A DNA stretch of 35,921 bases, taken from assembly GCA_012719415.1 (NCBI GenBank), contig JAAYAK010000242.1:1-35921 (forward strand). Direction: 5' to 3'. The translations under genes and the position numbers were made by a program. Origin of the DNA: Syntrophorhabdus sp. (GTDB lineage: Bacteria > Desulfobacterota > Syntrophorhabdia > Syntrophorhabdales > Syntrophorhabdaceae). The notes beneath the pieces are model-generated. The model was given only the letters and a program-made list of their open reading frames with translations. It ran no database searches and had not been told where the DNA came from. Shown one piece after another: positions 8,400 to 35,907 of the stretch (position 1 is the stretch's first letter; every line of letters begins with the position of its first letter).

Positions 8400-8837
8400 T
8401 CACGCGGGAAAATCTACCCATGGCCCGGGGTTGACGTTGTTCTCCCAGGACCAGAGATTGAATCGTCCCGAGGATATCCTGAAGACCAGGATAGTAGGGG
8501 AATCGGGGGTTCCCGTGCCTATCTGCTTCAACCAGTCGAACGTCTCATAAAGCCTCGCGCGAATGTTCATGTCCTCCACGAGTTCCATCCTGCCGGCGAT
8601 CCGAAGCACCGTGCCGATATCGGGAGGCATGCCCGGCTGGTGAAAAGCGATCTCGACATTCGGGTTTGCCAGAAGCTGTGACGCAAGAGGCTTGACCGCG
8701 GAGGTGTAGAAATAGATCCCGCTCGAGTCCGCGAGCCACACGGTCATGGGACGCACGTGCGGCCTCTCACCCTCCACCGTTGCAAGGAAACCGTCAGGGA
8801 TCCTTGCAATGTATCGAAGACAATCCTCAAAGGTCAT
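8400..8837 (-). CDS. Pyridoxamine 5'-phosphate oxidase-like FMN-binding protein
   Basis: A 145-residue single-domain split-barrel protein of the PNPOx-like superfamily. Family features are the N-terminal helix followed by GFLATVEGERPHVRPMTVW (about 17-35), the strand IYFYTSAVKPLASQL with Lys at the FMN-phosphate position, VEIAFHQ, and a C-terminal FRISSGRFNLWSWENN. Members bind flavin or related cofactors and act as small oxidoreductases or general stress proteins; the substrate here is unknown. GAGGG precedes the ATG at 8837. It converges with the alpha/beta hydrolase gene and appears monocistronic. Confidence 0.85.
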   Translation of the reverse strand: MTFEDCLRYIARIPDGFLATVEGERPHVRPMTVWLADSSGIYFYTSAVKPLASQLLANPNVEIAFHQPGMPPDIGTVLRIAGRMELVEDMNIRARLYETFDWLKQIGTGTPDSPTILVFRISSGRFNLWSWENNVNPGPWVDFPA

Positions 8838-31272: not shown

Positions 31273-31478
31273 GGGAACGCCCTACACATTTTCACATTCG
31301 CCTTCCGTGCAAGATCAAAGGAGCATCGTGCAGACATTGAGCCCGGAGTTCCGAAAAGAGGCGCGGCCGTTCTTGATATTCTCGGGGGAGAGGGATAACA
31401 TCTGCCTGATACCACCAACAACCATCATTGCTCTTTCAGACCTGGTAGAAGAGAGAATGTGAAGATGTGAAGGGCCCC
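31273..31478 (+). repeat. Dispersed promoter-bearing repeat, full copy A (MITE-like)
   Basis: This 206-bp element has terminal inverted repeats: CCCTACACATTTTCACATTC (31280-31299) against GAATGTGAAGATGTGAAGGG (31455-31474), 18 of 20 paired. Inside are TTGATA (31373-31378), a 17-base spacer and TAACAT (31396-31401), then the core CAACCATCATTGCTC and CAGACCTGGTAGAAG. It aligns along its whole length with copy B at 35707-35907, at roughly 70-75 percent identity by eye. No open frame or transposase lies inside, so movement would need an enzyme encoded elsewhere. Confidence 0.8.
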
Positions 31479-31525: not shown

Positions 31526-31554
31526 TTGACGAGCCTGTATGCATATTTTATACT
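31526..31554 (+). promoter_or_regulatory. Sigma70-like promoter of the duplicated beta-lactamase-fold gene
   Basis: TTGACG at 31526-31531 and TATACT at 31549-31554 are separated by 17 bases, about 50 bases before the start codon. This promoter is separate from the one inside repeat copy A. Confidence 0.7.
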
Positions 31555-31605
31555 CCTTAATACCTGACAAATCCTGAAGGTTCACAAAGATAGGGGGACG
31601 AGTGT

Positions 31606-34600
31606 ATGAGGAGCGCCAAAAACCTGTCGACGGTTGGTTGTTTCCATTTCCTGTTTCTTGCGTGCCTTGCGCTGATCGTGCTCGCTCCTGTGCCGGTGCG
31701 CTGCGCAGACTTTCCTTACACGGCCACGATCGCCGAAGGACGAACGGCGGTCAAAGAAGTCATGGAGCAGACCGGCGCGTCTTCGGTCTCCGTAGCCTTT
31801 ACCGATGGCGACAGGCTTGTCTGGACCGAGACCTTTGGCTATGCCGACCGGGCGTCGGGGACGCTGCCAGCGAAGGAAACAATGTATTGCATCGGGTCGA
31901 CGAGCAAGATGGTGGCGACGATAGCCGTCATGAGGCTTGTGGACCAGAAGAAGGTCTCCCTCGACGCGCCTGTTGCGGACTACATAAGATCATTTACGAT
32001 GCTCTCCCCGGGATACCGCAAGATCACGGTCAGGATGCTCCTCAACCATTCAGCGGGGTTTCCCGGAACGGATGAGCGCAACGCCGAGACCACGTCTCCC
32101 CTGACCTTCGACTATTCCGCCCAGATCCGCGAGACCCTCGCCGCCGGACGGCTCAAGCACGACCCCGGCTGCATGAACATCTACTGCAATGATTGCTTCA
32201 CCATGGTGGAACAGCTCGTAGAGGCCGTGACGGGCAAGAAGTACGCGCAATTCGTCCATGACGAGATCTTTGCCCCGCTGGGGATGACGCACAGCCGCTA
32301 CCCCCTCGGCTATTTCCCCGAAGGGTCCTTCGCCGTGAGATACGATAGGGACGGCGCACTGCCCCAGCTGTTCCTCAACACGGGGGCCTCCGGAGGCCTC
32401 TATTCGACGCCGACGGACGTGGCGAAGCTTGCAATGATGCTCGCCGGCGGGGGGATAACGGCGAATACGCGCATCCTCTCCGAGGCCGCCGTGACCGAGA
32501 TGGGCAAGGACCAGACGCTTTCCACCTTTAACCCGGTCAGGCAGGACGGGATGAGCTTTGGTCTGGGGTGGGACACGGTGCGCCAGCCGGGCCTTCGCGC
32601 CGTCGGGGTAACGGGCTGGCAGAAGGGAGGAGACGTCCCCTTCTACGGCTCTGTTATGTCCGTCGCACCGAAGGAGAGGCTGGCTGTCGTCGTCCTCGGC
32701 GCATCGGGTCGATTCGGCTCCGGCAGCGCGACGATCGTTGCCGAGAGGATTCTCCTGAAGGCCCTCGCCGAAACGGGCAGGATAGCATCTATGCCGGGGC
32801 CTGTCGCAACGAAGCCGGCCCCCGCGAAGAAGTCATCCGGTGATGAGGCCGATTCATCCGGCGGTTATTATGCGAACAACAGCACTCTCCTGAAGGTGAA
32901 GGCCGGTCCCGGCGGATCGCTCGACATCGTCACGTATGATGCCGCGAAAGGCAGCTGGAAGGATTGGCTCGTCGGCGTCGGTCTTCGCGAGGATGGATAC
33001 TGGTCGACGGACGCCGCCGCCTCGCCGGCCGTATCGTTTGTCAAGGCCGAAGGGCGGTCATACATGGTTGTCAGGATGGCGAAGGGATACGGACACTACA
33101 CCGATTCCTTCACCTATGCCCAGAAGGTCGGCCCCACCTCGAAGCCACAGGCCGCATGGAATGAAAAACGGCTGGGGACCACGTGGCTTCTCGTGAACGA
33201 GCATCCGGACTTTATCGATAAATGGAAGACACCGGTCTTCAGACTGCGGTCTATCGATGGAATGATCTTCGCCGATTGGGCGGACCTGCAGATCGTCGAT
33301 GCCTCCACAAGCGACGCCAGGGCCGTCATGACCCTTCTTATCCCACAGTCCAACGGGACGGGGCTCAACGACGTCGTAATCGAGACACGGTCCGGCGAGG
33401 AATGGGTGCGCTTCGGAAGCTATCTCTTCCGTCCCGCACAGGGAATCGGTGTTCTTAAGCCCGGTGATAACCCCATCGCCCCTCCCGCCGGACAGATGTC
33501 GGAATGGCGCCGGTACGATGTGGGCGACAACCCGGCGAGGGTGAACATCGTACCGAATGGAAAGGACGGACAGTGGAAGATGTACGACGGGAGCTTTGCG
33601 CTCATCCACAAAGGGGCGGGCGGGAAGAGCATGGAACTTGCCGCCGGCACGTACTATTTCCTGTGCCACGACCCCGCAAACATCAGGATCACCCCCGCCG
33701 CAAAGGTGGTCTACAAGGCTACCATAGCCGATGCCGAGGCCGCCGTCAATGAGGTGCTCAAGAAGACGGGTGCCTCATCGTTAGCGATGGCTCTCGTTGA
33801 CGGCGACCGGCTCGTGTGGACAGAGGCCTTTGGTCTTGCCGACAGGGAATCGAAGACGGTGCCGAAGAAAGAGACGCTGTACGCCATCGGGTCGACGAGC
33901 AAGATGTTCGCCACCGTTGCCGTCATGAAACTCGTGGACCGGGGGCTGATCTCCCTTGATGAGCCCGTCGTGAAGCATCTCAAGTCTTTCCGGATGCTTT
34001 CTCCCGAATACCGGCAGATCACGGTTCGGATGCTGCTCAATCATTCGTCGGGATTTCCGGGAACCGATTATCGGAATGGCTTTACAACGACGCCTTTCAA
34101 GGACTATTCGGCACAGGTCCTCGAGACCCTTGCCACCTTGCGGCTCAAGCACCCGCCGGGATATCTCAGCGTCTACTGCAACGACGGTTTCACCGTTGTG
34201 GAGCAGCTCATCGCGTCTGTGACGGGAAAGAGTTATCCCCGGTTCGTTGAAGATGAGATCTTAAAGCCTCTCGGTATGAAGAACTCGAGGTATATGCTCG
34301 ACTATCCCCCCGAAGGGAGCACCGCAAAACGCTACGACGGGAAAGGCAGGGAACTGCCCTTCATGTTCGTCAACGTTCTTGCCTCGGGCGGCCTGTACTC
34401 AACGCCCTCCGACATGGCCAGATTCGCCATGATGCTCATCGGAAAGGGCAGGCTTGGTGACACCCGCATCCTGTCGGAAAAGGCAGTCGCAGAAATGGCC
34501 AAAGACCAGACCCTGGGGAGCTTCAACCCTGTCAGATCCAATATGGTCAGCTATGGGCTCGGATGGGACACGGTGCGCCAGCCGGGATTGGGGGCCGTCG

Positions 34601-35676
34601 GCGTGACGGCCTGGCAGAAGGGCGGGGCCATCCCGTACATGAAGGCGCTCTTCACCGTCGTTCCGGACGAGAGGCTGGCGGCCTTCGTCGTCGGTGCATC
34701 GGGGAATTTCGGCTCCGATGACACCATCGTGCTGATGGAGCGACTTCTCCTTAACGCCCTCGTCGAGAAGGGACGCATCGCGTCGGTTCCTTCCCCCCTG
34801 AAAGGAAAAGCCCTGCCGGAAAAGACGGTCTCCCCTGCGGAGCTCCGGTCTTTCGCCGGCTGCTACGGGCGCAGCGATTCCTTGCTGCGCGTCAGCAGAG
34901 GTCGTGGTCAAAGCCTGAGCATCTACCGCTACGATCCCGAAAAGAAGAGATGGGGCGCCTGGCAGAAGGGACTCACGATGCGCTCTGACGGTTATTTCGC
35001 TTCGAAGGCCGATCCCTTGCAGGCCTTTGCCTTCAGGACCGCGGACGGACGGCAGTACCTGATCAACCACTCTGTTGCCGGATACGGCCATTACCGGGAC
35101 AGCGAGGTCATTGGCCAGAAGGTCCCGTCTGCGGCGGCCCTGCCGGCCTCGTGGAAGAAGCGTTTGGCGCGGCACTGGCTCATATCAAATGACAACCCCA
35201 CTTCCGACGAATGGGAAGCCCCCGTCGCCGACCTTGCGAACTACAGGGGTCTGCTCCTTTCGAGCGGTTCGCAGGTCGTCGACCCCACTTTGAGCGATTC
35301 CCGGGCCGGCATGGTGCTCGTTATTCCTCAATTGAAAGGCAGGGACCTCAACGATCTTGTTATCGAGAACCGGGCCGGCGACGAATGGCTGCGCCTGGGC
35401 AGCTACCTTTACCGGCCCCGCGAGACTGTTCAGAAACTCGCCCGGGGCGAAACGACGATCGTGCTCGGTCCTGATGGAAACAGTGAGTGGCGTGTCATCG
35501 ACCGGCTAAACAAGGCGAAGACGCTGACCATTTCCCCTGACCGGCCCGACGGCTCCTGGAGACTCTACGATGCCAGACTGAAACAGCTCGAGAGGGGAAA
35601 GGGAAAAAAGAGTCTGCCTCTTGCCGGCGGTACGTATTATCTCCTTTTCCACGATAATGCCAGGGTGATTTTTTGA
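31606..35676 (+). CDS. Exported protein with two tandem serine beta-lactamase-fold units
   Basis: A 1356-residue protein: a signal peptide (about 1-34), then two homologous units at 38-702 and 703-1356, offset by exactly 665 residues. Each unit has a class C beta-lactamase/DD-peptidase/esterase domain (PF00144 type) of about 350 residues and a beta-rich region of about 300 residues. Catalytic motifs are intact in both. SxxK is Ser98-Lys101 and Ser763-Lys766 (GSTSK). YxN is Tyr193-Asn195 and Tyr857-Asn859 (YCN). A WQKGG motif (338-342 and 1003-1007) stands where KTG or HTG is expected. Family enzymes hydrolyse or transfer acyl groups on D-Ala peptides, esters or lactams; resistance cannot be inferred. 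GGGGGACG lies before ATG 31606. The gene is bracketed by repeat copies A and B in the same orientation. Confidence 0.93.
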   Translation: MRSAKNLSTVGCFHFLFLACLALIVLAPVPVRCADFPYTATIAEGRTAVKEVMEQTGASSVSVAFTDGDRLVWTETFGYADRASGTLPAKETMYCIGSTSKMVATIAVMRLVDQKKVSLDAPVADYIRSFTMLSPGYRKITVRMLLNHSAGFPGTDERNAETTSPLTFDYSAQIRETLAAGRLKHDPGCMNIYCNDCFTMVEQLVEAVTGKKYAQFVHDEIFAPLGMTHSRYPLGYFPEGSFAVRYDRDGALPQLFLNTGASGGLYSTPTDVAKLAMMLAGGGITANTRILSEAAVTEMGKDQTLSTFNPVRQDGMSFGLGWDTVRQPGLRAVGVTGWQKGGDVPFYGSVMSVAPKERLAVVVLGASGRFGSGSATIVAERILLKALAETGRIASMPGPVATKPAPAKKSSGDEADSSGGYYANNSTLLKVKAGPGGSLDIVTYDAAKGSWKDWLVGVGLREDGYWSTDAAASPAVSFVKAEGRSYMVVRMAKGYGHYTDSFTYAQKVGPTSKPQAAWNEKRLGTTWLLVNEHPDFIDKWKTPVFRLRSIDGMIFADWADLQIVDASTSDARAVMTLLIPQSNGTGLNDVVIETRSGEEWVRFGSYLFRPAQGIGVLKPGDNPIAPPAGQMSEWRRYDVGDNPARVNIVPNGKDGQWKMYDGSFALIHKGAGGKSMELAAGTYYFLCHDPANIRITPAAKVVYKATIADAEAAVNEVLKKTGASSLAMALVDGDRLVWTEAFGLADRESKTVPKKETLYAIGSTSKMFATVAVMKLVDRGLISLDEPVVKHLKSFRMLSPEYRQITVRMLLNHSSGFPGTDYRNGFTTTPFKDYSAQVLETLATLRLKHPPGYLSVYCNDGFTVVEQLIASVTGKSYPRFVEDEILKPLGMKNSRYMLDYPPEGSTAKRYDGKGRELPFMFVNVLASGGLYSTPSDMARFAMMLIGKGRLGDTRILSEKAVAEMAKDQTLGSFNPVRSNMVSYGLGWDTVRQPGLGAVGVTAWQKGGAIPYMKALFTVVPDERLAAFVVGASGNFGSDDTIVLMERLLLNALVEKGRIASVPSPLKGKALPEKTVSPAELRSFAGCYGRSDSLLRVSRGRGQSLSIYRYDPEKKRWGAWQKGLTMRSDGYFASKADPLQAFAFRTADGRQYLINHSVAGYGHYRDSEVIGQKVPSAAALPASWKKRLARHWLISNDNPTSDEWEAPVADLANYRGLLLSSGSQVVDPTLSDSRAGMVLVIPQLKGRDLNDLVIENRAGDEWLRLGSYLYRPRETVQKLARGETTIVLGPDGNSEWRVIDRLNKAKTLTISPDRPDGSWRLYDARLKQLERGKGKKSLPLAGGTYYLLFHDNARVIF

Positions 35677-35706: not shown

Positions 35707-35907
35707 TGGGGACATCCCTTCACATCTTCACATTCGGCAACGATGCCAGACCAAAGCAGCATCCTGTAGGCATTGAATCCGAAGACCCGAAAAGAGGCGC
35801 GGCCGTTATTGACACTCTCGGGAGGGAGGGGTAACGTCTTCCCAGTACATCGACAATCATCGTTGCTCGTCAGACCCGGCAGAGAAAAGATGTGAAGGAT
35901 GTCCCCA
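35707..35907 (+). repeat. Dispersed promoter-bearing repeat, full copy B (MITE-like)
   Basis: This 201-bp element has nearly perfect terminal inverted repeats. GGGGACAT-C-CCTTCACATCTT (35708-35728) pairs with AAGATGTGAAGGATGTCCCC (35887-35906), differing by one extra C. It contains TTGACA (35809-35814), a 17-base spacer and TAACGT (35832-35837), then the core CGACAATCATCGTTGCTCGT. ATGCC...GGCAT inside the left half could form a further hairpin. The window ends 14 bases after it, so its downstream gene is unseen. Confidence 0.85.

Follow-up and report, generated by a model that had tools for sequence, protein, structure and literature searches.

A Syntrophorhabdus gene for a predicted exported chain of two tandem Lip3-like units, a candidate two-headed D-stereospecific peptidase

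Introduction

The enzymes of the PF00144 superfamily share one fold, which also serves esterases, carboxypeptidases, amidases and acyltransferases. In this fold the substrate carbonyl acylates the serine of an SxxK motif, a Lys and a Tyr assist, and water frees the product. The closest described systems are those of Paenibacillus, where Lip3 and Lip7 cut the DL-amide bonds of the lipopeptide syringafactin according to a commentary (PMC13188892). We describe here a gene of Syntrophorhabdus sp. in which two units of this kind follow each other in a single chain: a rare architecture, real, inside a known family. The gene lies in a stretch of 35,921 nucleotides (contig JAAYAK010000242.1 of assembly GCA_012719415.1), hereafter the window.

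Results

One frame, two units

Between positions 31606 and 35676, the plus strand of the window holds one complete open reading frame of 1356 codons with zero internal stops. PF00144 is matched in two stretches of the encoded chain (Pfam; E 5.8e-126; 420.5 bits against a gathering cut-off of 27), and the two units, U1 and U2, are 53% identical across 655 residues (BLASTP, 679 bits). The preliminary description, made from the DNA letters, had proposed a single exported chain that has one signal peptide and holds two complete units, and this is what we find. Its 665-residue unit holds as the repeat period; U2 itself has 653 aa, because it stops at the stop codon of the frame. The parts of the gene are:

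31606..35676, plus strand: complete open reading frame, 1356 aa
31606..31704, plus strand: predicted signal peptide, about aa 1-33, the sole one in the chain, read by eye as a hydrophobic N-terminus in the translation and aligning with the signal peptide of the UBA1386 gene (below)
31720..33714, plus strand: U1, aa 39-703, PF00144 domain and C-terminal beta-rich domains
32836..33696, plus strand: U1 C-terminal beta domains, about aa 411-697 (predicted strands; Lip3 match)
33715..35673, plus strand: U2, aa 704-1356, architecture as U1, without a signal peptide of its own
34831..35673, plus strand: U2 C-terminal beta domains, about aa 1076-1356 (predicted strands; Lip3 match)

The units are joined by a short in-frame linker, about IRITPAAKVVYK. 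Reading of the sequence found no second signal peptide at this join and a promoter scan found no plus-strand promoter-like site near the start of U2, so that U2 as a separate exported product is unsupported. A frameshift or assembly error joining two genes had been named as the finding that would undo the description, and the window does come from a metagenome assembly, as one of 329 contigs. We nevertheless consider such an artefact very improbable: (i), the frame is open through the join and a second signal peptide is lacking there; (ii), U1 and U2 differ at about 40% of their bases, which makes it unlikely that an assembler joined two identical copies; and (iii), the simplest account of the mosaic gene of UBA1386 has the two halves side by side at some earlier time.

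Both catalytic sets are kept

Both units carry the SxxK, YxN and KxG motifs of PF00144 (S12-type) enzymes. SxxK starts at aa 98 in U1 and aa 763 in U2, and WQKGG at aa 338 and aa 1003:

31890..31911, plus strand: U1 22-nt block CATCGGGTCGACGAGCAAGATG, the same in U2, the inferred crossover site; contains the SxxK codons (31897-31908)
32182..32190, plus strand: U1 YCN motif, aa 193-195
32623..32631, plus strand: U1 KGG box, aa 340-342
33885..33906, plus strand: U2 copy of the 22-nt block; contains the SxxK codons (33892-33903)
34174..34182, plus strand: U2 YCN motif, aa 857-859
34618..34626, plus strand: U2 KGG box, aa 1005-1007

WQKGG had been taken for an unusual replacement of the KTG box, a view that must be given up: KGG is the normal KxG box of the whole family, Lys302 and Gly304 of this box (numbered as in unit U2) do not vary among 12 relatives, and the solved Lip3 has KGG at the equivalent position. 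The catalytic residues in general are likewise invariant in the family. The claim that both catalytic sets are retained stands. An alignment of 11 other relatives has 153 conserved columns, of which 137 are retained in U1 and 139 in U2. Where U1 and U2 differ, it is most often at the third position of a codon (229/184/366), and U2 compared with its UBA1386 sister copy gives a dN/dS of about 0.23.

Each unit departs from the consensus near the pocket, U1 by G159C, a Cys right after YCND, and U2 by Q216F and by Y309M and G310K, a Met-Lys that replaces Tyr-Gly past the KGG strand. These differing near-motif departures suggest that the heads differ in their preferences. They could also be read as the mark of a passive passenger, one head being structural or binding and the other alone catalytic; we think this unlikely, as the nucleophile, general-base and KGG residues are all kept in both units and the overall constraint is similar.

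Likeness to Lip3

AlphaFold models of the units, both of good quality (pLDDT 88.0 and pTM 0.89 for U2, 85.6 and 0.86 for U1), have the same top solved match, PDB entry 9sn1, "Lip3 DL-peptidase in the apo-state", with Z scores far above those of other chains (Z 46.5 over 632 residues and Z 45.7 over 631, essentially the whole unit). The sequence of U2 also matches 9sn1 (phmmer, 1.2e-74, residues 13-607). The full-length Lip3-type fold, catalytic plus C-terminal beta domains, is thus present in both predicted units; Lip3-type enzymes are single-unit chains, and this frame holds two units. The next structures (2qmi, a Pyrococcus PBP homologue; the esterase IS11; LACTB; D-amino acid amidase; AmpC; R61) align over about 320-410 residues, mainly the catalytic domain. 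The candidate activities of the preliminary description, DD-peptidase, esterase and beta-lactamase, omit the best lead, DL-peptidase, the activity of the nearest full-length relative with a solved structure.

A two-headed S12-type enzyme with another activity, either an AmpH-like peptidoglycan DD-carboxypeptidase/endopeptidase or a periplasmic esterase resembling EstG or IS11, is a serious possibility, if a lesser one. The top NCBIfam match is AmpH, at 190.6 bits, and the esterases IS11 and EstG as well as the R61 DD-peptidase match the catalytic domain with Z 34-37; however, every curated cut-off is missed (AmpH 266, PBP4B 385, class C 415 bits), and the IS11, EstG and R61 structures align over about 325-390 residues only, against 632 for Lip3.

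Three specific assignments are not supported: AmpH (NF007943) and class C beta-lactamase (NF033085, 106.1 bits), both below their cut-offs, and a bifunctional beta-lactamase of the LRA-13 type, as the chain has two PF00144 units instead and a class D domain is absent from its Pfam matches.

A mosaic single-unit gene in UBA1386

The relative of the gene in a sister species, Deltaproteobacterium UBA1386 (record L024; the sequence in G005 is the same), has a single unit and 691 codons, and it is a mosaic. Before the 22-nt block, in the stretch that begins with the signal peptide and runs up to SxxK, it is U1-like (57 of 60 informative sites, 57:3; 91% nucleotide identity); past the block it is U2-like (651 of 692 sites, 651:41; 95% identity; Fisher p 8e-55 for the pattern). 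The switch point falls inside this block, which U1 and U2 share letter for letter and which encodes SxxK, and the lengths fit exactly (1356-665=691; 763-98=665). Silent divergence is the same in both arms (dS 0.135 and 0.134), as expected if both come from one locus that split once. In the tree, the stems of U1 and U2 measure about 0.49 each against 0.033 for U2/UBA1386, so that the two units are much older than the split from UBA1386. The simplest reading of these sequences is that the double gene was ancestral and that UBA1386 lost one unit by recombination between the units.

Conversely, the single-unit form might be ancestral, UBA1386 never having doubled and the lineage of the window having gained a unit by internal duplication or by insertion from a diverged relative. 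Nearly every relative is indeed single-unit, and gain or loss of a unit at the 22-nt block would leave an identical pair of sequences. We still judge this improbable. An internal duplication after the split predicts units about equally close to UBA1386, whereas the N-terminal part of U1 and the C-terminal part of U2 are 91-95% identical to it and the C-terminal part of U1 and the N-terminal part of U2 60-66%; a later insertion would require a diverged piece running from a C-terminal part through into the N-terminal part of the next unit. The UBA1386 form could also be an assembler jump over the shared 22-nt block, since this genome too is a metagenome assembly, but such a jump needs a double gene in UBA1386 as well.

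As to the origin of the double form, tandem duplication, as first proposed, is favoured by the tree over fusion of two related genes, U1 and U2 grouping together with support 90/86. The proposal stands only in part: fusion with a close relative is unrejected, the alternative grouping of U1 with the G028 gene having a p-AU of 0.21, a value which also leaves room for a single-unit ancestor.

Single units are common, the double chain is not

The search for single-unit homologues called for by the preliminary description found them to be common. They occur in the phylum of the window, as single records in Pseudomonadota, Acidobacteriota and Bacteroidota, and in 190 of 297 Paenibacillaceae genomes (up to four candidates scored per genome), some there as adjacent genes. 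The unit itself is common and already known; what is unusual is its fusion into a double chain. No second fused chain was found among the matches listed in about 1,180 genomes, covering Paenibacillaceae, a sample of the same phylum, the family of genome G140 (to which the Geobacteraceae records belong) and the order that contains a beta-proteobacterial record; among these matches the frame in the window alone exceeds one-unit length, and the description of the double chain as uncommon is upheld to that extent. In a plasmid collection, relatives were at most about 38% identical and, among the matches listed, one unit long or less. We found no report of tandem units of this family in the literature.

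In the beta-proteobacterial metagenome record (L025, 4821-8905), two single-unit genes stand side by side as separate genes; they belong to different branches of the family, and in the tree they are not each other's nearest kin.

Expression signals and surroundings

Upstream of the gene lie two candidate expression signals:

31526..31554, plus strand: sigma-70-like promoter TTGACG-17-TATACT (scan, 10/12 matches; hexamers and 17-nt spacing kept upstream of the UBA1386 gene)
31592..31598, plus strand: likely ribosome-binding site AGGGGGA (read from sequence; found in UBA1386 as well)

The neighbours are an msrB-like gene upstream on the opposite strand, a CoA-transferase, NAPRTase and others. 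No operon and no gene hinting at a peptide substrate were found in this neighbourhood, and scanning the window with Rfam and for tRNAs gave no matches. Window and UBA1386 record have in common only the gene and about 110 nt upstream; the neighbouring sequence is unmatched, and therefore either the cassette moved or its surroundings were rearranged.

An element of about 200 bp occurs once before and once after the gene, both copies pointing the same way (window positions 31279-31475 and 35707-35907). Its terminal inverted repeats are CTTCACATCTTCACATTC / GAATGTGAAGATGTGAAG, extended by GGGGAC...GTCCCC; three further full copies occur in another contig (C38) and partial matches in others, and it looks like a MITE or a REP-like element. 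In UBA1386 the gene is closely followed downstream by a different repeat (8595-8741 and 10987-11138 of L024, 91% identity over 153 bp) and thus adjoins repeats too.

Discussion

With moderate confidence, we propose from the sequences and predicted models that the product of this gene is exported and acts as a D-stereospecific serine peptidase with two heads, each of the kind of the DL-peptidase Lip3, and that the double form predates the split from UBA1386, where a unit was lost by recombination. The peptidase assignment follows from the kinship to Lip3; against it weigh the low identity of about 28%, the range of other activities that this fold serves, and the neighbouring genes, none of which hints at a peptide substrate. 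We infer that the most likely role is that of a secreted or periplasmic enzyme with two slightly different pockets. Each head would form an acyl-enzyme on its own SxxK serine and cut amide bonds beside D-residues. Its substrates, met in the periplasm or outside the cell, could be non-ribosomal peptides, lipopeptides or fragments of the cell wall. Side-chain preferences may have drifted slightly apart, through changes next to YCND in U1 and just past KGG in U2, and a single chain with one signal peptide would ensure that both heads are exported and dosed together. In UBA1386, a crossover at the SxxK-coding block would have dropped 665 codons and left an open-frame single-unit gene.

A bolder version, which we put forward tentatively and regard as rather unlikely, is a DL-peptidase in which each of the two heads has side-chain or stereo-preferences of its own and a single mixed D/L-peptide is cut at two places, in a lineage that recombines at the active-site codons between the double and the single hybrid form. 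The suggestion in the preliminary description of two substrates, or of joint action on a polymer, is a conjecture.

With this gene, a newly described family of lipopeptide-remodelling peptidases would gain a form in which two heads are fused. The gene also offers a natural case of a tandem enzyme apparently collapsed to a single hybrid by a crossover within the catalytic-serine motif; the hybrid and its two parents thus make a ready set for testing the determinants of specificity.

Among known systems, Lip3 (Paenibacillus, PDB 9sn1) shares with U1 and U2 an S12-type catalytic domain followed by C-terminal beta domains, with SxxK, YxN and KGG in register; unlike the double chain it is a single unit, about 28% identical, from Bacillota and with a known substrate, syringafactin. 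The single-unit relatives in the phylum of the window, Pseudomonadota, Acidobacteriota, Bacteroidota and Paenibacillaceae are 30-55% identical to a unit, often multi-copy and sometimes neighbouring, but each is a separate chain. Class C beta-lactamase, AmpH, R61, LACTB and EstG have the same catalytic fold and motifs, but are shorter, with an incomplete C-terminal domain set, and their curated cut-offs are unreached where tested. Finally, the LRA-13 class C-class D beta-lactamases (PMC5967600) resemble the double chain in having two serine penicillin-recognising catalytic domains per chain; they differ from it in that two different classes are fused, rather than two units of one family, and in that beta-lactam resistance has been demonstrated for them.
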